From Bacteroidales bacterium (lineage in GTDB: Bacteria; Bacteroidota; Bacteroidia; Bacteroidales; UBA932), in NCBI GenBank assembly GCA_017548805.1, contig JAFYZE010000235.1:1-12488 (forward strand): a stretch of 12,488 nucleotides of DNA. The letters run 5' to 3'. The notes beneath the pieces were generated by a model. It searched no databases. It was not told the DNA's origin and worked only from the letters and a program-made list of their open reading frames with translations. The translations under genes were made by a program, and so were the position numbers. Positions 1-12,488 of the stretch are shown here, one piece after another; the first letter of the stretch is position 1; every line of letters starts with the position of its first letter.

Positions 1-1794
1 AAGGGCTCCGCCCATAGACTTCGGATGCGCATAGATGACATCCCAGTAGTCGTCCACGCCACCGCCGCCGTTTCCGGCGACTGACAGGTACTCATCCATG
101 AAGGACGGGCGCAGGTCCTTGGTATCGAGGCCATAGCCCAGTTCCAACTCCATGGGGGAAGGATAACGGGGTCCGACAATATCCTCCGCGGGATGCTTGG
201 CGGCATTGCCGCCGTACATCCAGAAGCGGGTGGGATCGTATGACTTTCCTTCCTTCACGACTTCTGTGATATTGTTGCCCTCACCGCTTTCATTTCCGGC
301 ACTCCATATGAGCACACAGGCGTGATTACGGTCACGGAGGACCATCCTGCGGACGCGTTCGCGGTACATCTCCGTGAACTCTGGCATATCGCTTACATAC
401 TCGGAGGCATGTGCCTCGTCTCCAGTCTCATCGATAATGAATATGCCGTACTCGTCAGCAAGGTCGAGATATTCGTTGACAGGAGGATAGTGAGAAGTGC
501 GCACACCATTGAAATTGAACTGCTTGAGAATCTCGAAATCCCTGCGGATCACATCTTCGGTCATGGCATGGCCGAGGTCGGGATGCTGCATGTGGGAGTT
601 GACGGCGCTGACCTTGATCGGCTTGCCGTTCAGGTAGAATACGCCTTCGCGTATCTCGGTCTTCTTGAAACCTATGCGCTTTGTAACCTCGTCAACGACG
701 CGTCCGGAGGCGTCCTTGAGCGTCATCTTGAGGTCATAGAGGTCGGGAGTCTCGGACGACCATTTCTTCGGCGAGGCCACGCGGGCACGGAAGTTTACCT
801 TCTGCTGCCCTCCGGCAGCCACGCTGAGCCCGGACTGCTCCATGGTAGCCACAGCCTTTCCGCCGTCGGAAACCACGGCGGAAAGGGAGTAGCCGGAGGC
901 CTGTGCATCGAATGCCTGGACGTCCACCGCCAGGCTGAGGTCGGAGTCGGTATACGACGCGTCGAAATCCGTGATCACCTGCCAGTCGCGGATGCGGACC
1001 TGGGGCGTGGCGAAGACAGTGACGTCATCGAAGATACCGGCCAGACGCCAGTAGTCCTGTCCTTCCAGGTAATAGCCGTCGCAGTACTTCACCACCATCA
1101 CAGCCACGGTGTTCTTGCCGGGCTTGACATACTTGGTGATATTGTACTCGGAGGGCTCCTGTGCACCTTCATTGTATCCTACCTGCTTGCCGTTGACCCA
1201 TACGAACGAGCCCGAGGCGACCTTCTCGAAACGCAGGAAGACCTGCTCGCCCTTCCAGGACGAAGGGAGGTTGAAGGTGGTGCGGTATGCTCCGGTGGGG
1301 TTGAAATCCATCGGGACATTGGGGATCTGCACGGCGAAAGGATTGACCGGGCCGCCCCCGGCGCGGAACCGCGCCATGCGTTTCTGCTGTTCGCTCGCAT
1401 TGGGGTCATCCAATATCTTGCGGTACCGCTCCAGGAGGGACTCGGGCATGGTCACCGCGAAGGGGGCGCTGACGTTACGGAACAGCGCCTGTCCGAAGCC
1501 CTGCATCTCCCAGTTGGACGGTACCTCGATCCAGGACCACTTCCTGTCGTTGAACGACGGATTGAAGAAGTCCTTTGGAACGTCATAGGGCGACTCGAAG
1601 TACTGGAAACGCCATTTTCCGTCCAGGGAAACATTGTGGGCGGGGATATGGAAGGCCCTTCCGGGCTCCTGGTTCAACTCGAAAACCTCAAGGTTTTCCA
1701 TATAGTACGGCAAGTCCTCGAGGAAGGGTTTGTCCTGTGCAGGCGCCTGGAGGGCGATGATGCACAAGGCAAGGGGTAGAATGATTCTGCGCAT
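1..1794 (-). CDS. GH2 beta-galactosidase (LacZ-like), secreted; 3' end cut by window edge
   Basis: Hydrolyses terminal beta-D-galactose (family GH2, retaining); probably periplasmic or surface-exposed. 598 codons are visible and the frame is open at the edge, so the C-terminal domains are missing. The start is the ATG at 1794, which gives a clean signal peptide (MRRIILPLALCIIALQAPAQ) and leaves 22 bp after the GH95 stop, so the two are co-transcribed. After an ENLEVFELNQEP motif (about 33-44) come the sugar-binding jelly roll, an Ig-like domain and the TIM barrel from about residue 375. By comparison with E. coli LacZ, the acid/base is Glu502 (GNESGEG), the nucleophile Glu568 (MDEY), and the metal-site residues Glu460, His462 and Glu502; SHYP is also present. 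All key residues are kept, so it should be active. LacZ NRHEHHP reads NSHMQHP here (399-405). Residues about 115-145 form a charged segment absent from LacZ. The exact galactoside cannot be read from the sequence. Confidence 0.93.
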   Translation of the reverse strand, partial: MRRIILPLALCIIALQAPAQDKPFLEDLPYYMENLEVFELNQEPGRAFHIPAHNVSLDGKWRFQYFESPYDVPKDFFNPSFNDRKWSWIEVPSNWEMQGFGQALFRNVSAPFAVTMPESLLERYRKILDDPNASEQQKRMARFRAGGGPVNPFAVQIPNVPMDFNPTGAYRTTFNLPSSWKGEQVFLRFEKVASGSFVWVNGKQVGYNEGAQEPSEYNITKYVKPGKNTVAVMVVKYCDGYYLEGQDYWRLAGIFDDVTVFATPQVRIRDWQVITDFDASYTDSDLSLAVDVQAFDAQASGYSLSAVVSDGGKAVATMEQSGLSVAAGGQQKVNFRARVASPKKWSSETPDLYDLKMTLKDASGRVVDEVTKRIGFKKTEIREGVFYLNGKPIKVSAVNSHMQHPDLGHAMTEDVIRRDFEILKQFNFNGVRTSHYPPVNEYLDLADEYGIFIIDETGDEAHASEYVSDMPEFTEMYRERVRRMVLRDRNHACVLIWSAGNESGEGNNITEVVKEGKSYDPTRFWMYGGNAAKHPAEDIVGPRYPSPMELELGYGLDTKDLRPSFMDEYLSVAGNGGGGVDDYWDVIYAHPKSMGGAL

Positions 1795-1816
1795 AATGCT
1801 GGGTTGTTTCTATAGT

Positions 1817-4162
1817 CTATAGGGAGATCTTGACGGTCTCGCCGGCCTTGGTGTCAAAGTCATAGTAATTGTCGCCGACCCTGACCTTCAGGGGGCCGCC
1901 GACCTGGGACTTGACGCTGGCCTTGACAAGCTTGCCGCCGTCCCATGTCATGTCCACGATGAATCCGCCGCGGGCGCGGAAGCCCTTGACGCTTCCGGTA
2001 GGCCATGCATCAGGCAGTGCGGGGAGTAGGTGGACATAGCCGTTCTGGCTCTGGAGGAGCATCTCCGCCACACCGGCGGTAGCTCCGAAGTTGCCGTCGA
2101 TCTGGAACGGCGGGTGGGCGTCGAAGAGGTTGGGATAGGTCCTTCCCATCTTGGGACGCTGGCCGCCCGGAGCCATCCTGGGACGTCCGAAGCCGACGTT
2201 CGGATCGATGAGCGTGAACATGTTGCTGAGGATGAGGAAGGCATGGTTGCCGTCCAGCATGCGGGCCCAGAAGTTGGTCTTCCAGCCGAGGCTCCAGCCG
2301 GTGGCCTGGTCGCCGCGCTGGATGAGGGTGACCCTGGCGGCGTTGAAAAGTTCGGGCGTGTCGGGATTGATCTGGTTGGAAGGATAGAGGCCGTAGAGGT
2401 GCGAAATGTGCCTGTGCTCATCCTTGGGATCATCCATGTCCTCGATCCACTCCTGGAGCTGACCGTACTGGCCGACCTTCATGGGCGGGAGCTTGGCCAT
2501 GGTCTCGGTGAGCGTCTTCTGGTAAGCCTCGTCGATGCCGAGTTCGGAGGCGGCGGTCTTGGCCGCGGTCATGATATCGACTACGATCTGGTTGTCCATC
2601 GTACAGCCGGCGGTGAGCGGGTTGGCCTTGCCGACGCCGCCGTGCTCGGGGCTGACGGAAGGAACGACCACGAGGTAGCCGTTATTGGGATCGACCTGCA
2701 TGTAGTCAAGATAGAAGTCGGCGGCGCCCTTGATCACCGGGTACCACTCCTTCAGGAAAGCCTTGTCCCTGGTGAACAGATAGTGCTCCCAGAGGTGCGT
2801 GGCGAGCCATGCGCCACCGTTGGGGTACATACCCCAGTCGGAGGCGTCGACAGGGCCGGCGATCCTCCAGATGTCGGTATTGTGGTGCGCCATCCAGCCG
2901 CCGCAGCCATACATTTCGCGGGCGGTGATGGCACCTGTCTCGCTGAGGTCCCTGATCATCGAGAAGAGCGGCTCGGTGGTCTCGGTGAGGCCGCAGACCT
3001 CTGCGGGCCAGTAGTTCATCTCAGCGTTGATGTTGATGGTATACTTGCTGTCCCAAGGGGCCATGTGCTCCTGGTTCCAGACGCCCTGGAGGTTAGCGGC
3101 CTGTCCGCCCGGCTGCGAGCTGCTGATGAGCAGGTAGCGGCCGTAGTTGAACATCAGCTCCACCATTCCCATGTCGTCGCTGCCAGTGAACGAGTCGAGG
3201 CGCTGGCTGGTGGGAAGGGAGGCATTGGCTCCGGCAGGAAGTTCGAGATCCACCCTGTCGTACTGGTCCTTGTATGCATCGACGCTGCGCTTGAGAAGCT
3301 GCTTGTAGGACATCTTCTCCGCCGCGGCCAGCCTTTCGGCGTTCTTGGCGGAAGCGTTGCCGCTGACGTCGTGGTAGTTGACGAAATTGGTGGCTGCGGA
3401 GATGAGCAGCATGGTCTCGGTCGCGTCGCTTACATTGATCTTGTCCCCCGCTGCCGTGACGGAGCCGTTGGACTTGACCCGGATCACGATCTCAGCGGCG
3501 AGTTTGGCGTCGATGCCTTCCATCGAGTCGCCCTGCACGACCGCTACAAGGTCTTTGCCGTTGGCCTTGGCCTCGAACGGCAGGCGCGCGTTGTAAGACA
3601 GCGAGAACGAAGTCTTCTTGTCCTCGGTGAGACGGACTACGACTACCTTTTCGGGCATCGAGGCGAATGCCGTCCTCGTATAGTTGACACCGTTGGAGGT
3701 GTACGTGGTGGTATTGACGGCATTGGACAGGTCAAGCTGACGGTGGTAGTTCTCAGCCTCGCCCACTCCTTCGAACTCGATGAACAGGCTTCCGGCATTG
3801 AGGAACCTCATTCCGTGCGGCCCGACGACGAAGTCCTGGTCGATGATGGTCTTGGCTTCAGCCTCCTTTCCGTCGAAGATCAGCTGCCTCACTTCGTCCA
3901 GGCGCGCGAGCGAACGCGGGCTGTTGTTGTTATGGGGACCGCCGCTCCAGAATGTCTCTTCGTTGAGCTGGATCTCCTCTTTCTGGACACCGCCATATAC
4001 CATGGCTCCCATGTTGGAGTTGCCCAGGGGCAGCGCTTCCAGCCAGACACCGGCCGGCGCATCGTACCATAAGACTTCGTTTACGCCTGCCTCGGTCTGT
4101 CCGTTGCAGGAGAGGGCGCACATACAGAGTACCGCGCCGAGAATGTAAGCTGCTCTTTTCAT
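1817..4162 (-). CDS. GH95 alpha-L-fucosidase / alpha-L-galactosidase, probable lipoprotein
   Basis: Inverting exo-glycosidase of family GH95, 781 aa, a usual length. The start is the ATG at 4162. An upstream in-frame ATG at 4207 would place a transcription-terminator-like hairpin inside the coding region and bury the signal peptide. The N-terminus [19 protein letters not shown] is a lipoprotein signal with Cys19 as likely lipidation site; the lipobox is weak. Family signatures are the N-terminal [24 protein letters not shown], the NxNxxMNYW block, [18 protein letters not shown] and DGNFGATAG. By comparison with Bifidobacterium AfcA, the general acid is Glu506, the base asparagines are Asn377 and Asn379, and the assisting Asp is Asp689. 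AfcA has His two residues before the first Asn; here it is Thr375, a change I associate with alpha-L-galactosidase activity. The family is certain; the choice between L-fucose and L-galactose is inference. Confidence 0.94.
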
Positions 4163-4171
4163 AGCTGTACT

Positions 4172-4209
4172 AAAAATTGTGCTGTGGTTGGATACCAGCC
4201 ACAGCACAA
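4172..4209 (-). terminator. Intercistronic hairpin with T-run between susD and GH95
   Basis: A perfect 11-bp inverted repeat pairs 4177-4187 with 4199-4209 (TTGTGCTGTGG against CCACAGCACAA). Inside it, three more pairs form beyond one mismatch, around a 3-nt loop. In the leftward transcript the stem is followed directly by TTTTT (4176-4172). The ATG of the GH95 gene starts 9 nt after the run. It sits 10 bp beyond the susD stop. This has the form of a rho-independent terminator. Inside an operon it would act as a partial terminator or 3'-end stabiliser, giving more susCD than hydrolase mRNA. It could also hinder translation initiation of GH95. Confidence 0.7.
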
Positions 4210-4219
4210 AAATAATGAA

Positions 4220-5917
4220 TTATCTCCAGGTTCTGGTCTGCTGCAGAGTACCGTTGTTCTTCAGGAGTTCGTCCGTTGCGATAGGAAGCAGGTACATCGA
4301 ATCGTTGAACTTCCTGTCGAGGAGCAACTCGTCTTCGTAAGTCTTTACTCCGGTTGCCTTGTCCAGGGTGATCTTGATACCGTGTCCAGGGCGGTTGAGC
4401 ACCTCGGAGGCGATCATCCAGCGGCGGAGGTCGAAGTATCTGTGCTCTTCGAACACAAGTTCGATGTGGCGCTCGTTGTAGAGGCGGGCCCTGAGGGCTT
4501 CACCGGTGACGGATGCCGGCAGGCCGGGCATTCCGACGCGGGCGCGGATCTTGTTGATGTACTCGCGGCACTCGGCTTCCTTGCCGGTCTCGAATGCAGC
4601 TTCTGCGAAGTTGAGGTAAATCTCAGCCAGACGGAAGTGGATCCAAGGCATGACATATTTCTCCTGCCATGTAAGAGGAATCTCATCCGGCGGCATGAAC
4701 TTCCTCATCTGCTGGTTGCTGGCAGGGTTGTCACTACTCTGGTGGACGTTGTCATATCCCCAGCTGGTACCGTCGGTAGACACCCACATTTCAAAAGTGA
4801 CACCGTGGAACTGCGAACCGTCGTGGAGGATACACATATCCATACGGGGATCCCTGTTGTCATAAGGGTGCTGGGGATCGTAGCCGGAAGCAGGGTTGAT
4901 GGTCTTGACACCGTTGTTCCAGATGAAAGCAGGCTCGCCGTTGATCATGTCATAGTCGTCGAGGAGCTCCTTGGAGACACCGGAACTTCCCCACCATCCG
5001 CCATATCCACCGTAGCGGCGGCCGATCGTGTTGATCGGGTACTGGTGGCTGCTGGTCGAGGTGAAGTTTTGGGCGAAGATGATCTCACTGTTCGGAGTAC
5101 CGCTGGCCTGGTTGAACATCTTCTCGTAGTCAGGATAGAGAGAGTACTGGGTGTAGGTATCGATGAACTTCTTGGATGCCTCATAGGCCTTGTTCCATTT
5201 CGACTTGTCGTTCGAAGTGTTGAACAGGGGGGATGCGGCATAGAGGTACATCCTGCTCAGGAGAGCCTGGCACACTGCCTTGGTGGGATGGCCGAAATTG
5301 GCATCATTGGTTCCGTAATAGTCAGGGAGTGAAGGCATGATCGCGGACAGTTCCTTGTCAATGAAGGACACTATCTCATCGAACGGAGTGCTGCTGAAGG
5401 TATCCTCCGAACCAAGCTCGTAGGACTGGGTCACTAGAGGAACGTCTCCGTAGCGCTCGATCAGATAGAAATAGATGAAGGCGCGGAGGAACCTGGCTTC
5501 GGCGACGAGCTTATCCTTGTCCTGCATGGAGACTTCGGTCGTTTCCATCTGCTCCAGGAAGAAATTGATCCTGCGGAGGTACTGGTATGCCTGATTCCAA
5601 TAGTGGAGGTTGCATCCGCCATGCCACTGAGTGGTGGAAAGGTTGCCGACGTTGTCCGGAGTAAGGGTCGCCAGTGCGATCACCGGGGAGCTGCCGGAGT
5701 TGACGGTGACGATCTCATCAGTGGTCTTGCACTGCATGTCGATTTTGAAGCCGTGGGGGATGGCATTGAAGAGAGCGGTATGGTAGGCCCTGATCAAACT
5801 GGGATCCGACCATACGGCAGCATCGGAAATGCTGTTGGTAGGTTTGATATCCAGTATCTTGTCACTACAAGCGGATATTGCCACTACTGTAAGGATGATT
5901 GCAAATATCTTTTTCAT
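4220..5917 (-). CDS. SusD/RagB-family outer-membrane glycan-binding lipoprotein
   Basis: Surface lipoprotein that captures oligosaccharide and caps the SusC channel. 565 aa, typical for the family. The signal MKKIFAIILTVVAISAC gives Cys17 as the lipidated residue (ISAC lipobox). Family hallmarks are the TPR-rich stretch EARFLRAFIYFYLIERYGDVP (from residue 140), the W-I-H-F-R-L-AEIYLNFAEAAF segment (about 425-442), INKIRARVGMP, RHIELVFEEHRYFDLRRW (483-500) and the C-terminal YLLPIATDE. A Gly/Tyr/Trp-rich stretch at 299-309 (GRRYGGYGGWW) lies where SusD proteins often carry ligand-stacking aromatics; its role here is inferred. The gene starts 15 bp after the susC stop, so translation is probably coupled. 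The ligand cannot be read from sequence, but the downstream GH95 and GH2 point to a galactosylated glycan with an alpha-L-fucosyl or alpha-L-galactosyl cap. Confidence 0.96.
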   Translation of the reverse strand: MKKIFAIILTVVAISACSDKILDIKPTNSISDAAVWSDPSLIRAYHTALFNAIPHGFKIDMQCKTTDEIVTVNSGSSPVIALATLTPDNVGNLSTTQWHGGCNLHYWNQAYQYLRRINFFLEQMETTEVSMQDKDKLVAEARFLRAFIYFYLIERYGDVPLVTQSYELGSEDTFSSTPFDEIVSFIDKELSAIMPSLPDYYGTNDANFGHPTKAVCQALLSRMYLYAASPLFNTSNDKSKWNKAYEASKKFIDTYTQYSLYPDYEKMFNQASGTPNSEIIFAQNFTSTSSHQYPINTIGRRYGGYGGWWGSSGVSKELLDDYDMINGEPAFIWNNGVKTINPASGYDPQHPYDNRDPRMDMCILHDGSQFHGVTFEMWVSTDGTSWGYDNVHQSSDNPASNQQMRKFMPPDEIPLTWQEKYVMPWIHFRLAEIYLNFAEAAFETGKEAECREYINKIRARVGMPGLPASVTGEALRARLYNERHIELVFEEHRYFDLRRWMIASEVLNRPGHGIKITLDKATGVKTYEDELLLDRKFNDSMYLLPIATDELLKNNGTLQQTRTWR

Positions 5918-5932
5918 ATCGTTAGCTTTTAA

Positions 5933-8900
5933 TTAGAACTGGATTCTTGCTCCAAGGTTAAGAACGCGCTGCTGAGGATAGCTGAGGTAGTTGCCGCTGA
6001 CCTCAGGGTCACTCCACTTGACCTCCTTGGCCCAGGTCAGGACATTGAATCCGCTGACATAGAATCTGCAGGAGTTGAAGCCGATACGGCTCATGACACT
6101 CTTGGGGATGGTATAGCCGAATTCGATATTCTTCAGACGGACGAACGAAGCGTTATGGAGGAAGAAGGTGGAGCTTCCGGGCTGGTAGCAGTCCGCTCTC
6201 GGCATGGTACCGTTGGGATTGTCGACGGTCCAACGGTTGATGGACCTGTGTACGGTACTGTTGCTGTAGTCGGAAACACCGAGCTTGACATACTCGTCGT
6301 CATAGTTGTAAGCTCCGGCCTGGCCCTGGATGAGCATGCTGAGATCGAAATTCTTGTAATTGACACCGAAGTTGAGTCCGAAGACATACCTAGGAGTGGC
6401 ATCGTAGTCGAAGCGGAAACGGTCGTTGGAGTCGATCTTGCCGTCATTGTTGAGGTCTATGATCTTAGGGTCTCCAACGTGGGTCCTGCTGTGGTGAGGA
6501 TAGGAGTCAAGCTCTTCCTGGGTGTGGAAGATGCCGTCAGCCTTGTAGTAGAGGCCGGCGCCAATGGGGTGGCCGGTGCGGTTCTGATACTCTTCCACAT
6601 TCGGGGTCTCATCCATGAAGATGATGGTGTTCTTGGCGTACGACATGTTGCCGGATACGTTGTAGGACACATCACCCACCCTGTTGCGATGGCTCAGGAC
6701 GATCTCATATCCGTGGTTCTCGATCTTTCCGATATTCTCGTTAGGGAGAGAGGAGAAACCGAAGGTGCTCGGGATGGAGAGGTTCCTGGCGGTAAGGATG
6801 TTGTTGCGCTTCTCCTTGAAGACGGTGACTTCAGCGCCGAACAGGCCGTTCCACAGTGTGGTCTCAAGACCGAGGTCGTACTTAGTACTCCTCTCCCAGG
6901 TGATGTTGGGGTTGGGCATGGTGCCGGGCTGGATACCTGCAGAGGTGCTGGTTCCGAAGATGAAGTTGCCTCCGAAACTGTAGTTCTGCATGTACTGGTA
7001 AGCGGAGACGGCGTCATTACCGGTCTGTCCGAGTGATGCGCGGAGCTTCAACTGGTTGATCCAAGGGGCGTTGTTCTTGATGAAAGGCTCCTCGGAGATA
7101 CGCCATCCGAACGAAGCTGCAGGGAAGAAACCGTAGCGCTTGTCCTTGGGGAACTTGTAGGATCCGTCATACCTGAACAGGAGCTCCAACAGATACTTCG
7201 ATGCATACTCGTAGTTGAAGCGGCCGAAGTAGTTGTTACGGGCGGTCTTCGAAGAAGAACCGGAGTTGTCCTTGTCTTCCGCAGCGGTGCTACCGACGTT
7301 GATCTCTTCGATCGCGGTACTGATGAAGTTCTGCCTTCTGGCCATTGCGGAGGAGCTCTGGTTGATCTGCTGCTCCTGACCGACCATGAGTGCTACGCGA
7401 TGGTCACCGAAATACCTGTCATAGGTAATGCGGTAGTTGTAGAGCATGTTAGTACCATAGTTGTAGGTGTCGGTGAGCGTGACGGTGCTCTGGCCGGTAC
7501 CCTGCTTGTAGTCATACTCTCCGGTGTTCACGTTGTACTCGTGATAGAAGTAAGGAATGGACCATACCTTGTTCTTCGAGGTGGAGATGTCGTAGTTGAA
7601 GGAGGCATCTACCCTGAGGCCTTCGACCCACGGAATCTTGTAGGTAGCGGTGAAGGTGGAATAGATAGGAGACCTCCAGGACTTGTTGTAACCGCGCGTG
7701 TCGAGCAGGAGGGGGTTCTCTCCGAGTCGTCCGGGAGCGATAAGTCCGTTGGGATAGACAGCGATGAGACGAGGGTCAGCCATGAGGATGTTCACGAAGT
7801 TGTCGTGGGTGCTCACATGGCTGTGGGTCTCGTTGGAAAGGATGGCGCTGATGTTGGCGCCTACGGTGAAGTAATCGCTGAAATCTACTTCGACATTGGT
7901 CCTGAAGGTGTACTGGTTGTACTCCTCAAGCTGGTGATAGAAGCCAGGTCCCTGGGTCCTTGCGCCGAAGGAAAGGAGGTAACGGACGTTCTTGGTACCG
8001 CCGGAAGCCTGGACACTGGTACGGGTCTGGAGTGCGTACGGACGGAGGGTCTCCTTTACCCAGTCGGTGTTCGGATAGAGGACGGGGTCAGAACCGTTGC
8101 GGTATTTCTCGATATCGGAAAGGGCGATGGCGGGATTGTAGTTCGCCGGCCTGCCCTTCCTGTCCCAGTCGCCTTCGTTGTAGACCTCGGAGTAGGTGAC
8201 TGCGTCCAGCATATCGGGAATCTTGGTAGGGGCGGAGAAGGAAGTACTGAAATCAACCGAGAAGGTGGCCTTTCCTTCCTGTCCTTTCTTCGTGGTGATG
8301 AGGATGACACCGTTAGCAGCACGGGCTCCGTAGATAGCGGCTGATGCGTCCTTCAGGACGGTGATGCTCTCGATATCATCAGGGTTCAAACGGGTCATGC
8401 CGTCACGCTCGACACCGTCGATGATGTAGAGCGGGGTCGTGGTACCGAAAGTACTGAAACCGCGGATATGGATGGACGGGTCGTCACGTCCGGGCTCACC
8501 GGAACGCTGGTTCACGATGAGGCCGGGGAGACGGCCTTCAAGGGACGAACCGAGGTTCGGTGAAGGGCTCTTCGTGAGTTCATCGCCCTTGACGGTCACG
8601 ATGGATCCGGTCAATGTCTCCTTCTTGTGGACACCATATCCGACCACCACCGTCTCCTGCAACTGCATGTTGTCAAGTGCAAGGGACACGTTGATGTTGT
8701 TCGACTGTCCTACGGGAACCGTCTGGGAGAGGTAGCCGAGGGACGAGAACTGGAGGACGGCTCCTGACGAAGGGACCGAAATTGAATAGGTTCCGTCAAG
8801 TTCCGTGATCGTTCCGACGGAGACGCTACCCTGAAGGAGAACGGCGACACCCACCAGGGGTTCGTTGTTCTCATCCGTAACGACTCCGGTAATTGTCCTT

Positions 8901-8971
8901 TGCTGGGCAAAGGCGGACTGGCATACAATAAAAAAGAACGCCAGCACAAACAAGAGATGTTTTTTCATCAT
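5933..8971 (-). CDS. SusC/RagA-family TonB-dependent outer-membrane transporter
   Basis: TonB-dependent beta-barrel that imports oligosaccharides with its SusD partner. 1012 aa from the ATG at 8971 (a second ATG follows at 8968). The in-frame ATG at 9097 would add 42 residues ahead of the signal peptide and read through a GC-rich hairpin, so it is not used. Order: signal peptide ending SAFA (about 22), carboxypeptidase-regulatory-like domain about 26-105 (TGVVTDENNEPLVGVAVLL), TonB box ETVVVGYG (106-113), plug about 114-230 (LEGRLPGLIV, IRGFSTFG, PLYIIDGVERDG, LKDASAAIYGARAANGVILI), then the barrel ending in the aromatic terminus RIQF. There is no N-terminal STN domain, so it is not a sigma/anti-sigma-coupled transducer; control by the divergent AraC protein is more likely. 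The reading frame is intact, with no sign of decay. Confidence 0.97.
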   Translation of the reverse strand: MMKKHLLFVLAFFFIVCQSAFAQQRTITGVVTDENNEPLVGVAVLLQGSVSVGTITELDGTYSISVPSSGAVLQFSSLGYLSQTVPVGQSNNINVSLALDNMQLQETVVVGYGVHKKETLTGSIVTVKGDELTKSPSPNLGSSLEGRLPGLIVNQRSGEPGRDDPSIHIRGFSTFGTTTPLYIIDGVERDGMTRLNPDDIESITVLKDASAAIYGARAANGVILITTKKGQEGKATFSVDFSTSFSAPTKIPDMLDAVTYSEVYNEGDWDRKGRPANYNPAIALSDIEKYRNGSDPVLYPNTDWVKETLRPYALQTRTSVQASGGTKNVRYLLSFGARTQGPGFYHQLEEYNQYTFRTNVEVDFSDYFTVGANISAILSNETHSHVSTHDNFVNILMADPRLIAVYPNGLIAPGRLGENPLLLDTRGYNKSWRSPIYSTFTATYKIPWVEGLRVDASFNYDISTSKNKVWSIPYFYHEYNVNTGEYDYKQGTGQSTVTLTDTYNYGTNMLYNYRITYDRYFGDHRVALMVGQEQQINQSSSAMARRQNFISTAIEEINVGSTAAEDKDNSGSSSKTARNNYFGRFNYEYASKYLLELLFRYDGSYKFPKDKRYGFFPAASFGWRISEEPFIKNNAPWINQLKLRASLGQTGNDAVSAYQYMQNYSFGGNFIFGTSTSAGIQPGTMPNPNITWERSTKYDLGLETTLWNGLFGAEVTVFKEKRNNILTARNLSIPSTFGFSSLPNENIGKIENHGYEIVLSHRNRVGDVSYNVSGNMSYAKNTIIFMDETPNVEEYQNRTGHPIGAGLYYKADGIFHTQEELDSYPHHSRTHVGDPKIIDLNNDGKIDSNDRFRFDYDATPRYVFGLNFGVNYKNFDLSMLIQGQAGAYNYDDEYVKLGVSDYSNSTVHRSINRWTVDNPNGTMPRADCYQPGSSTFFLHNASFVRLKNIEFGYTIPKSVMSRIGFNSCRFYVSGFNVLTWAKEVKWSDPEVSGNYLSYPQQRVLNLGARIQF

Positions 8972-9027
8972 GGTTATAGAATTAGTATGGTGAGTGTTAA
9001 TTCTTTCGTTTTCAATCTTGTTCCCTG

Positions 9028-9070
9028 GGGGCCTTTGCCTCCCGCGCTTCCCAGCGAGGGAGGCTGCCCC
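9028..9070 (-). other. GC-rich hairpin in the reductase-susC spacer / susC leader
   Basis: The 129-bp spacer holds a strong stem. GCCTCCC (9037-9043) pairs with GGGAGGC (9058-9064). Beyond one G/A mismatch, CGCT (9045-9048) pairs with AGCG (9053-9056) over a 4-nt loop. Outside this, 9028-9032 can pair with 9066-9070. No T-run follows on either strand, so it is not a standard intrinsic terminator. In the leftward transcript it would lie 56 nt upstream of the susC start. Possible roles are a processing or stability element, or a leader control structure. No good TAnnTTTG box was seen in the spacer; the nearest feature is a run of three GTTT units just after the reductase stop codon. Confidence 0.5.
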
Positions 9071-9100
9071 GGAACCAACCATTAACCAAACAAACAAACT

Positions 9101-10048
9101 TTAAGTATTATTCCATCGCTCGCCGAAGTGCGGTTCGATAATCTTCGTGACCGCCTCCAGCAGAGCTGCATCGGTTTCGGATTCAAAGTATGCGACATCC
9201 CTCCTGACATTGTCGGGATTGGCCGAACTGAACAGGGTCGTGGCTATCCTTGGATTGGCGGTGGCAAACTGCATGGCGAGCTTCTCTATCGGGTAGCCGA
9301 CGCCCTTGCAGTATTCTGCCGCCTGCGCGCAGACTTCGACCAATGTCTTCGGGGCGGGATGCCAGTCGGGGATACCCTTTTCGGAGAGCAGTCCCATGGA
9401 CAGGGGGGAAGCATTGATGACGCCGACGCCCTTCTGCTCGAATTCGTCGAGGTAATCCAGGATCAGCGTATCGTTCAGGCAGTAGTGACAGAAGCAGAGG
9501 ACGGACTCGACCAGCCCGCTTTCTGTATTGTCAATAACCCATTTGAGGTTTTCGGGCTGCAGGTCCGTGATGCCGATATGTCCGACAACGCCCTCCTCCT
9601 TCAGCTCATGGAGCGCGGGAAGAGTCTCTTCCGCCACCTTTTTCAGGCCGCCGGGTAGGGAGGCCTGGAACTCGATATCGTGGACATTGATAAGGTCGAT
9701 GTGGTCGATGTTCAGGCGCTCCATGCTCTCATACACGCTCTCCTTGGCCCTCTTGGCTGAATAGTCCCAGATATTGACCCCGTCCTTGCCGTATCTGCCG
9801 ACCTTGGTGGACAGATAGTACTTGTCCCGGGGAATGGACTTCAGGGCCTTGCCCAACACGGTTTCAGCTTTGTAATGTCCGTAATAAGGCGAGACATCCA
9901 AGAAGTTGATGCCGCACTCGATGGCAGTAAAGACAGCTTCGATGGCTTCCTGCTCCTTTACGCTCCGGAATACCCCTCCCAACGAGGAGCATCCGAAGGA
10001 CAATTCGGAGACTACCATCCCTGTCCGACCGATTTCCCTATAATTCAT
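9101..10048 (-). CDS. Aldo/keto reductase resembling L-galactose / L-fucose 1-dehydrogenase
   Basis: NAD(P)-dependent cytoplasmic oxidoreductase of the AKR superfamily, 315 aa, full length. The AKR tetrad is visible: Asp51 and Tyr56 (FLDVSPYYG), Lys82 (STKVG) and His123 (NVHDIEF). From memory it resembles plant L-galactose dehydrogenase more than generic AKRs: shared stretches include SPYYG, HDIEF, an ETxPALxxLKxEG block, a CHYxxND block, KGVGVIxASPLxMGLL and a G-x-P-x-WHPA block. Those enzymes oxidise an aldose at C1 to the lactone; bacterial relatives use L-fucose or L-galactose. No signal peptide is present. It is the first gene of the leftward operon, ahead of susC and divergent from the AraC regulator, which suggests it processes the monosaccharide released by the pathway. 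The later enzymes (lactonase, aldonate dehydratase) are not in the window. AKR family is certain; the substrate is inferred. Confidence 0.88.
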   Translation of the reverse strand: MNYREIGRTGMVVSELSFGCSSLGGVFRSVKEQEAIEAVFTAIECGINFLDVSPYYGHYKAETVLGKALKSIPRDKYYLSTKVGRYGKDGVNIWDYSAKRAKESVYESMERLNIDHIDLINVHDIEFQASLPGGLKKVAEETLPALHELKEEGVVGHIGITDLQPENLKWVIDNTESGLVESVLCFCHYCLNDTLILDYLDEFEQKGVGVINASPLSMGLLSEKGIPDWHPAPKTLVEVCAQAAEYCKGVGYPIEKLAMQFATANPRIATTLFSSANPDNVRRDVAYFESETDAALLEAVTKIIEPHFGERWNNT

Positions 10049-11312: not shown

Positions 11313-12053
11313 ATGCCGAAAAAGGAGAAGATACAGCAGATGTTCGACGGGATCGCGGGGGACTACGACCGTCTGAACCATATTATGTCGCTCGGTATCG
11401 ACCGAAGCTGGCGCCGGCGGGCGATCAAGGAGATCGTCCGCAAAGCCCCGGCGCCTAGCGCCGGCGGCACAGCCGGGCACCCTGCCGGGCAGGAGATCCT
11501 CGACATCGCGTGCGGGACGGGCGATTTCAGCATCGCCATTGCCCGCGCGATGGCGCCCGGCAGCCGCGTCACCGGCCTTGACCTCTCCGAGGGCATGCTG
11601 GCCGTGATGCGGGCCAAGCTCGCGGCCGCCGGCCTTGAGGGCCGCGTCGCCTGCGTGCAGGGCGACAGCGAGTCCCTCCCCTACGCCGACGCCACATTCG
11701 ACTGTGTCACAATCGCTTTCGGTATCAGAAACTTCGAACACCGTGAGACAGCCCTGCGTGAAATCCTCCGCGTCCTGAAGCCCGGCGGCAAACTCGTCAT
11801 CCTGGAACTTTCTGTTCCGTCCAACCCAGTAATCCGCTGGTTCTACAAACTATATTTCACCGGCCTTCTCCCAATCATCGGCGGCAAGGTATCCGGCGAC
11901 AAAGCGGCATACCGATATCTTCCAGCGTCAGTGCTGAATTTCCCCGGCCGCGACGAGTGGATGGCCACGATGCGCGCCTGCGGCTACGCCGGCGTGCGCC
12001 ATAAGGCCTTCACCCTCGGCATCTGCCGCATGTACGTCGGCCTGAAGCCCTAA
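11313..12053 (+). CDS. ubiE: Demethylmenaquinone C-methyltransferase (UbiE/MenG)
   Basis: SAM-dependent methyltransferase that methylates demethylmenaquinone to menaquinone, the respiratory quinone of anaerobic Bacteroidota. 246 aa. The start at 11313 gives MPKKEKIQQMFDGIAGDYDRL, matching the family N-terminus; no earlier in-frame ATG exists. Motifs: LNHIMSLGIDRSWRRRAI (21-38), SAM motif I ILDIACGTGDF (62-72), GLDLSEGML (88-96), ESLPYADATFD (120-130), AFGIRNFEHR (135-144), LKPGGKLVILELSVP (155-169), YRYLPASVLNFPG (200-212) and the C-terminal FTLGICRMYVG. An Ala/Gly/Pro-rich stretch at about 44-59 (KAPAPSAGGTAGHPAG) loosens the link before motif I. It is encoded by very G+C-rich DNA and looks like a low-complexity insertion outside the catalytic core. 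It is a housekeeping gene, unrelated to the glycan locus. A ubiquinone role is unlikely in this group. Confidence 0.95.
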   Translation: MPKKEKIQQMFDGIAGDYDRLNHIMSLGIDRSWRRRAIKEIVRKAPAPSAGGTAGHPAGQEILDIACGTGDFSIAIARAMAPGSRVTGLDLSEGMLAVMRAKLAAAGLEGRVACVQGDSESLPYADATFDCVTIAFGIRNFEHRETALREILRVLKPGGKLVILELSVPSNPVIRWFYKLYFTGLLPIIGGKVSGDKAAYRYLPASVLNFPGRDEWMATMRACGYAGVRHKAFTLGICRMYVGLKP

Positions 12054-12104
12054 AGCCCTGACCTCACATACCCCCCTCATCAACCTTCGACCGTCTTCAA
12101 CACT

Positions 12105-12135
12105 ATCTGAACAAATAATGTAAAAATGTTCAGAT
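12105..12135. repeat. 9-bp perfect inverted repeat with TCTGAACA core
   Basis: ATCTGAACA (12105-12113) and TGTTCAGAT (12127-12135) are perfect reverse complements around an A/T-rich 13-nt centre, 51 bp after the ubiE stop. No T-run follows rightward. The TCTGAACA core is shared with the long hairpin that follows, giving four copies of the word in alternating orientation. Confidence 0.75.
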
Positions 12136-12141
12136 TCGAAG

Positions 12142-12190
12142 AAAAATAACCTTTTTCTGAACAAATTGGCTCGATTTGTTCAGAAAAAGG
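12142..12190 (-). terminator. Perfect 17-bp hairpin, probable terminator (best fit leftward)
   Basis: 12150-12166 pairs without mismatch with 12174-12190, around the 7-nt loop TGGCTCG. Read leftward, the stem is followed by TTATTTTT (12149-12142), as in an intrinsic terminator for a transcript entering from the right. Read rightward, it is preceded by an A-rich stretch and followed by no T-run, but the stem is strong enough to help end the ubiE transcript, 97 nt after its stop. A two-way terminator between convergent units is the simplest reading. Confidence 0.65.
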
Positions 12191-12287
12191 CGAACCAGCA
12201 TGCTACCGACCGTAGAGTTAACGTCAAAAAGAGTTAAGACGCCCGTAACCTTAGACTGGCAGCAGAGTTTTGACAAGAGAGCACGTT
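12191..12287. other. Spacer with no gene; short direct repeat only
   Basis: Nothing coding is recognised. AGAGTTAA occurs at 12214-12221 and 12230-12237, starts 16 bp apart in the same orientation. The pair might be a binding site or chance. Confidence 0.3.
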
Positions 12288-12488
12288 ATCCCTCAGCAAA
12301 AAGGTGAGGGATGCGGCGGTATGTGCGTTATCCCTCAGCAGGCGGGTGAGAGATAACAAAGGAAGGGTCGCAACCCTCACCCCAAGGTAGAAGGATGATA
12401 AGAAAAATGTTGAAAAGTCAGTATCCTTCGACCGATGGTAGAAGGATGACGAAGGTAGGGCGGTATCCCTCAACTGGAGGGTGAGGGA
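12288..12488. repeat. Array of five 25-bp palindromic units with mostly 17-bp spacers, running off the window
   Basis: Each unit is an 8-bp left arm, a 9-nt centre and an 8-bp right arm. Units start at 12288, 12330, 12372, 12423 and 12465, giving offsets of 42, 42, 51 and 42. Unit 1: ATCCCTCA/TGAGGGAT, perfect. Unit 2: ATCCCTCA/TGAGAGAT, extended outward by GTT/AAC. Unit 3: AACCCTCA/AGAAGGAT, a poorly pairing hybrid. Unit 4: ATCCTTCG/AGAAGGAT, pairing over 7 bp. Unit 5: ATCCCTCA/TGAGGGA, cut one base short by the window edge. Centres differ but most end in GGG or GGT. Spacers are 17, 17, 26 and 17 bp and differ in sequence. It is not a CRISPR array: the repeats are short and imperfect and the spacers too short. 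It most resembles a family of palindromic intergenic repeats. Function unknown. Confidence 0.8.

Follow-up and report, generated by a model that had tools for sequence, protein, structure and literature searches.

A REP-like palindrome cluster without a GTAG foot behind ubiE in a Bacteroidales lineage of the rumen, and its probable relation to RAYT-type transposases

Introduction

The REPs of E. coli and of the Stenotrophomonas REPtrons are short imperfect palindromes, often clustered, and each cognate Y1 HUH gene has its own palindromes on its flanks, the two changing together (cited passages of PMC2817692 and PMC8266576). The E. coli enzyme, TnpAREP, depends on a mismatch that is conserved in its REPs, and the spread of REPs is called poorly understood (cited passages of PMC8266576). 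For Pseudomonas fluorescens SBW25, REPIN doublets have been proposed as the replicating unit, with 71 and 110 bp as the two commonest inter-REP spacings (cited passages of PMC3116915). Subclass 2.6 of TnpAY1, from the Bacteroidetes, is described as having atypical flanking structures that lack GT[AG]G, copies of which occur elsewhere in the genome (cited passages of PMC6006769).

Here we analyze an array of palindromes at the right end of a 12,488-nucleotide stretch of Bacteroidales DNA (the window), together with related loci (L) in other genomes (G). The array is REP/BIME-like and has no GTAG foot. Since GTAG-free hairpins beside subclass 2.6 genes have been reported (in the part of PMC6006769 cited above), the kind is already known; the variant appears to be new, as no report of such repeats in this genus or of this variant was found in open-licence PMC papers. 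Systems of REP/BIME and RAYT, as described in the sources above, resemble the present one in their clustered imperfect palindromes, in RAYT genes having their own palindromes, in the co-change of the two, and, for the E. coli REPs, in the internal mismatch. They differ in that the present hairpins have no GT[AG]G foot adjoining the stem, and in protein size, the present RAYTs being mostly 290 to 320 aa long versus 165 residues for the 4er8 chain. Unlike in Stenotrophomonas clusters, in which the inter-REP length is stated to vary substantially (PMC2817692, passage cited), spacings are here near 42 or 51 to 52 bp. As for the SBW25 REPINs, doublets occur at set distances (PMC3116915, passage cited), but a distance of 50 to 53 bp is here common to hairpins with unrelated arms and spacers, and further arrays have a period of ~42 bp. 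The likeness to subclass 2.6 is one of description and not of tree placement, and it comprises the Bacteroidetes host, the GTAG-free atypical hairpins flanking genes, and the copies elsewhere (PMC6006769, passage cited).

Results

A preliminary description of this DNA had reported five units at the right end of the window, each composed of an 8-bp arm, a 9-nt center, and an 8-bp arm, with offsets of 42, 42, 51, and 42 bp. On recount, all five were present, starting at positions 12288, 12330, 12372, 12423, and 12465 (the z values below refer to folding as single-stranded DNA).

12288..12312, no strand assigned: unit 1, type I hairpin ATCCCTCA-GCAAAAAGG-TGAGGGAT with 8 bp, a mismatch, 1 bp, and a 5-nt loop; 8/8 arm pairs; z = -5.0.
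12330..12354, no strand assigned: unit 2, type I hairpin with a single arm mismatch; 7/8 pairs; z = -4.2.
12372..12396, no strand assigned: unit 3, hybrid with left arm AACCCTCA and the type II right arm GGTAGAAGGAT; poor pairing (5/8); z = -0.55.
12423..12447, no strand assigned: unit 4, type II hairpin ATCCTTCGACC-GAT-GGTAGAAGGAT with the conserved G.A mismatch; 7/8 pairs; z = -3.7.
12465..12488, no strand assigned: unit 5, type I hairpin whose last base is removed by the window edge; 7/7 visible pairs; z = -4.0.

This organization exceeds the expectation from dinucleotide shuffles of positions 12270 to 12488, since at least three units with at least 7/8 pairs were obtained in 1/5000 shuffles and an exact 11-mer recurring at +42 was obtained in 1/2000. 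Folded as single-stranded DNA, units 1, 2, 4, and 5 were each better than 200/200 shuffles, and unit 3 was close to its shuffles, 54/200 being as good. The fold of type I is the one listed for unit 1, and in that of type II a mismatch separates 7 outer from 3 inner pairs, with a loop of 3 nt. At its default score, Tandem Repeats Finder did not report any array for the window. The compensatory change previously noted in unit 4 (TTC/GAA for CTC/GAG) is real, as is the hybrid nature of unit 3, which combines a type I-like left arm with a type II right arm. The hairpins are not preceded by a GT[AG]G foot on either strand: the plus-strand bases before units 1 to 5 are CGTT, CGTT, TCGC, CAGT, and CGGT, and the minus-strand bases before units 1 to 4 are CCGC, TGTT, TATC, and CGTC. 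The only GTAG of type II lies inside the stem (GGTAGAAGGAT), and the inner hairpin occurs as a unit in single copies at position 132 of L270 and position 1673 of L363. For lack of such a foot, the array was classified as REP-like and not as a GTAG REP.

The array lies downstream of a methyltransferase gene and of two further hairpins.

11313..12053, plus strand: ubiE/menG-type methyltransferase gene (PF01209), upstream of the repeats.
12106..12134, no strand assigned: upstream hairpin TCTGAACA/TGTTCAGA of another REP-like family, the same as that of the array adjoining the RAYT gene of L014.
12150..12190, no strand assigned: second upstream hairpin TCTGAACAAAT/ATTTGTTCAGA with 17-bp arms (repeat search); z = -8.0.

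The second of these hairpins folds with 18 pairs once one base is added per side, and the two are 50 bp apart, center to center; the pair was absent from the preliminary description. In genome G001, the TCTGAACA family forms a long array at ~5050 to 5460 of L014, beside a RAYT-like gene (5481 to 6413). The remainder of the window includes, on the minus strand of positions 1 to 9097, a polysaccharide-utilization-like locus with SusD (PF07980), next to which a TonB-receptor-like open reading frame (ORF) and glycosidase-like ORFs were recognized by eye.

The nearest of the compared genomes, G001, shares 42% of the sampled 31-letter words of the window, and its ubiE is 94% identical to that of the window over a 595-bp stretch. 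At locus L016, which we infer from its sequence to be this same place of G001, ubiE is followed by ~1.1 kb of repeat-bearing DNA and then by a convergent UbiA-family gene. The gene following ubiE is convergent and of the UbiA family (menA-like; PF01040) in L016 and L017, the two loci covered by the Pfam check. In five of 16 loci (L017, L018, L019, L022, and L027), ubiE and the following minus-strand ORF share 4 bp. For ten others, the scripted distance to the next ORF was between -148 and 758 bp, the value of 758 bp belonging to L016, for which the script picked the wrong gene and the ~1.1-kb interval was read by eye; one locus had no ORF. Since ubiE overlaps its neighbor in 5/16 loci while L016 has ~1.1 kb there, the repeats resemble insertions into a junction that is otherwise compact. 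The same interval of L016 also contains, at 9650 to 9700, a palindrome, GTAGGAGGACT/AGTCCTCCTGC, with GTAG at its foot (by eye).

The position of the interval between convergent genes in relatives and the good folding of the hairpins, computed as DNA, would also suit a transcribed structured RNA or a terminator or mRNA-stability element in which the repeats act as RNA hairpins. A terminator scan of positions 11900 to 12488 gave 3 sites, all on the minus strand, versus a shuffle mean of 0.9, namely, a strong site at 12149 to 12191 and two weak, overlapping sites at 12362 to 12378 (minus strand). We nevertheless regard this explanation as improbable, because the scan lists no site at units 1, 2, 4, and 5, because no Rfam family matched at gathering thresholds, which also weakens the structured-RNA candidate of the preliminary description, and because the corresponding junction is too tight to accommodate such DNA in 5/16 loci. 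A role as RNA or terminator could be a secondary use of the repeats and not their cause.

Three hairpin subtypes were distinguished in relatives. Subtype I is ATCCCTC/GAGGGAT (ATCCCTCAGC-N5-GGTGAGGGAT), with a period of ~42 bp; subtype II is ATCCTTCGACC-N3-GGTAGAAGGAT, with a period of 52 bp and a conserved mismatch; and subtype III is ATCCTTCGG/CCGAAGGAT (ATCCTTCGGC-N5-TCCGAAGGAT and variants), with a period of ~42 bp. Units 1, 2, and 5 of the window are of type I, unit 4 is of type II, and unit 3 is the hybrid. The pattern ATCCYTC-N11-GARGGAT was found in 42/400 genomes of the genus, and the reversed control pattern was found in 0/400. More than three copies were present only in G157 (34 copies), G231 (31), G210 (7), G001 (7), and G005 (4), and many of the single matches are probably chance or coding sequence. 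With a looser pattern that allowed one mismatch, 48 type II copies were counted on 12 contigs of G231 (control, 0). Thus, as counted in the genomes of relatives, these repeats are, like REPs, short imperfect palindromes that are multicopy, often clustered, and intergenic at the places read. A fourth related subtype, AACCCTCAACC-N3-GGTAGAGGGTT or GGTGGAGGGTT, was seen by eye in L264, at 1410 to 1439 and around positions 2760 and 2810, with a left arm similar to the one in unit 3 of the window.

Spacings were counted between successive well-paired units less than 80 bp apart in 36 sequences. Type I units were separated by 42 bp in 3/3 pairs, all from L121 of G005, where four such units lie between two other genes. 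The spacing was 41 to 43 bp in 17/17 pairs for type III and its variants and 52 bp in 18/21 pairs for type II, the remaining type II values being 54, 42, and 42 bp. Both 42-bp exceptions, found in the window and in L285 of G210, mark a change of subtype, L285 being a mixed array that also includes a hybrid unit. As both spacing classes occur in relatives, the offsets of 42, 42, 51, and 42 bp in the window represent a mix of the two.

Pairing was likewise retained. Arm position 5 was paired in 164/170 selected readings (C-G in 15, T-A in 149, and unpaired in 6), the selection requiring that 5 or more of the remaining 7 pairs be formed (146 readings were dropped) and covering both strands, so that many units count twice. 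Distinct units were paired at this position in 64 of 68 cases, the 68 including at least one chance anchor. The first census, which was anchored on one arm and diluted by chance anchors, had given 199 paired positions among 316 readings. The G.A mismatch was kept in 29/34 distinct type II-like units. Since types I to III have a common arm core, some of the arm changes reflect shared descent and not independent events. The preliminary description had made its reading depend on 42-bp spacing and paired arm changes in relatives; the selected readings bear out the paired changes, and arrays with periods of both 42 and 52 bp were conserved.

An arm length of 8 bp would be suitable for a dimer, and the periods of 42 and 52 bp are close to 4 and 5 turns of a helix with 10.5 bp per turn (our own arithmetic), as expected if the array were a multisite operator whose double-stranded sites for a dimeric regulator lie on one face of the helix. 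This explanation also appears improbable: copies occur at many places beside different genes, palindromes of similar build track RAYT genes (see below), and a symmetric site would not need the internal mismatch that most type II units keep. Still less credible is plain growth and decay of a tandem repeat by slippage or unequal crossing-over, from one sequence and without a transposase; the period is regular and unequal crossing-over can enlarge a local array, but single copies are dispersed at unrelated places, there are two spacing classes, and pairing is kept through arm changes. Degenerate coding sequence, which the preliminary description had named as a finding that would overturn it and for which a minus-strand frame of 84 aa, open at the window edge, runs over the array, was rejected because 52 bp, the period of type II, is not divisible by 3 and breaks any frame.

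The RAYT-like ORF at 5481 to 6413 of L014 (G001, contig C5) encodes 310 aa, including NNHLHI, and adjoins the TCTGAACA-family array. Its homologues (family A) were detected in 52/61 genomes of the genus versus 0/40 genomes of other genera of the order. A second family (family B), found via L261, had matches in 227/300 genomes in a search within the genus. In each of nine genomes, chosen for carrying the hairpin family of the window, the family A profile gave 4 to 14 RAYT-like matches; a split gene may count twice. Both HUH histidines and one downstream tyrosine are invariant in 22/22 and 62/62 alignment rows of family A, as are H59, H61, and Y118 in 51/51 rows of family B; the invariant tyrosine is, by its position, the putative catalytic residue. 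The motifs read by eye are NHxH and IAYxxRN without NP for family A and NHFH and YIYNNP for family B, the family B motif being nearer to that of TnpAY1 subclass 2.4 (by eye, from the cited passages of PMC6006769). AlphaFold models of the two families had mean pLDDT values of 90.1 and 92.2, and the best PDB match of both, and the only one under an E value of 0.001, was 4er8, a RAYT with its REP hairpin (E values of 3.5e-4 and 8.6e-5; TM scores by target length of 0.65 and 0.68).

Annotation of these proteins was uneven. The L261 protein passes the Pfam Y1_Tnp model (32.9 bits; cut-off, 23). No Y1_Tnp match was found for L014 in the Pfam search, and its subthreshold match to an exonuclease family (E = 0.12) was taken as chance. 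PF01797 matched 11/22 rows of the A1 alignment at E values up to 0.1. NCBIfam NF047646 (REP_Tyr_transpos equivalog) also matched 11/22 rows, the shown cut-offs not being reached: among three proteins, REP_Tyr_transpos scores were 36 and 28 bits versus a cut-off of 80, and one was unmatched. The JGI label REP element-mobilizing transposase RayT was present on 4/96 family A homologues. For annotators, the warning is that family A RAYTs can escape the Pfam Y1_Tnp model.

Directly behind the family B RAYT gene of L261 (G157), whose stop codon ends at 2151, lie type III units at 2168 and 2210, 42 bp apart. Type III also occurs upstream of the family A gene of L257. The ortholog of the L261 RAYT in G231 (L292) is 60% identical and has the same neighbors (by eye), with different hairpin sequences following the RAYT gene and within the coding tail of the neighboring phosphoribosyltransferase-domain gene (by eye). 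These two hairpins have the word CCCGCAGG in common and different loops, and they were not counted as arm sharing by the script. At 1001 to 1030 of L261, a hairpin of the RAYT-linked type likewise lies inside the coding tail of the phosphoribosyltransferase-domain gene, the orthologous place being that of L292.

A palindromic 7-mer arm common to both flanks was present for 41/178 unique RAYT genes (22/133 in family A and 19/45 in family B), the 178 being those with both flanks longer than 300 bp among 194 unique genes (146 of family A and 48 of family B). Control pairings of mismatched flanks (20 rotations) gave a mean of 0.55 genes and a maximum of 3. The other 137/178 genes, including the orthologous G231 locus, had no shared exact 7-mer; some of them have a one-sided array or imperfect arms.

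Cognates of the ATCCYTC hairpins were sought among the RAYT matches of G001, G005, G157, G231, G210, G102, G315, and G260 and among 8/14 matches of G049. Only L261 (type III, G157) had such hairpins directly beside the gene, and no RAYT gene with type I or II hairpins of its own on its flanks was seen among the loci read in the genomes that carry these types. Two RAYT genes of G231 (L268 and L270) do have type II copies at ~0.5 and 0.9 kb, but both have other hairpins nearby. The 1.3-kb gap in a dense type II cluster of G231 (L362) contains a membrane-protein-like ORF (by eye) and not a RAYT gene, and the hairpin TACCCTC/GAGGGTA of L388 (G260) was too different to count as a cognate. Thus, the proximity of a Y1 transposase to such hairpins, which the preliminary description had suggested looking for, holds for type III; flanking by the same palindrome was found for type III and for the 12106 to 12190 family (L014) and not for types I and II. 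Since no RAYT flanked by type I or II hairpins was found, mobilization of these two types is proposed by analogy.

Successive related hairpins in the flanks of family A RAYT genes were 50 to 53 bp apart in 39/41 pairs, the others being at 42 and 62 bp. The loci concerned number 24 and differ in their arms and spacers; since some are orthologs of each other, they do not amount to 24 independent cases. Pairs were obtained from 25/150 family A genes, and 125/150 gave none. Four loci (L382, L388, L397, and L401) were added by hand for their shared palindromes; two hand-added loci contributed 4 of the 41 pairs, all at 52 bp, and without the hand-added loci 35/37 pairs were at 50 to 53 bp. As a control, 46 loci not chosen for RAYTs (638 kb) gave one related pair, at 51 bp, compared with 48 pairs for both families in ~224 kb of RAYT flanks, hand-added loci excluded. 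Family B gave 11 pairs, of which six, all in a single locus, were at 65 bp and the others were at 17, 22, 42, 52, and 56 bp (one each); as these spacings vary, the 51-bp rule is not general. The locus with the strict 65-bp period (L342; family B RAYT, six pairs of related hairpins) represents a third spacing class.

Discussion

We consider it very likely that the array of the window is a REP-like palindrome cluster, more precisely a BIME-like mosaic of two subtypes and a hybrid, and that its hairpins are substrates of RAYT-type Y1/HUH transposases. The palindromes are copies of small hairpin repeats belonging to a Bacteroidales lineage of the rumen, and these repeats most likely spread via RAYTs, single-strand DNA transposases with matching hairpins next to their genes. 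Assignment to the REP-like class is well supported; cleavage and movement are ascribed to the hairpins from what the family does. The REP/BIME-like element mobilized by a Y1 (RAYT-type) transposase, one of the candidates in the preliminary description, is favored by the 42- and 52-bp arrays, the paired arm changes, the hybrid unit of L285, and the RAYT gene with a sister hairpin, and its transposase part stands for that sister type, no RAYT for types I and II having been found among the loci read.

According to the mechanism that we propose, REP-like palindromes would have settled behind ubiE, in an interval that ends in relatives at the convergent UbiA-family gene. Each well-formed unit is predicted to fold into a hairpin with one internal mismatch (after 8 bp and followed by 1 bp in type I, after 7 bp and followed by 3 bp in type II). 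Y1/HUH tyrosine transposases of the RAYT (TnpAREP) kind would act on these hairpins in single-stranded form, cutting and joining them, with the lagging strand as the probable location. Copying into intergenic DNA would involve either single units or doublets of fixed spacing, and the arrays would later grow and mix through recombination.

A more tentative proposal, which we regard as possible but doubtful, is that what moves is a doublet of hairpins whose fixed distance (51 ± 1 bp, with 42 bp as a second class) would be kept while arms and spacers diverge beyond recognition. The RAYT would then measure distance, e.g., as a dimer on the doublet, and not read a GTAG guide, and the genus would host a radiation of guide-free REP/RAYT pairs. 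Such a radiation, if true, would fit the multiple RAYT-like matches per genome in the nine genomes.

The RAYT reading explains the palindromic arrays between genes of rumen Bacteroidales. A series of hairpins and transposases in one genus, free of GTAG, with one spacing and differing sequences, would allow the features read by the enzyme, i.e., mismatch, loop, and distance, to be tested.
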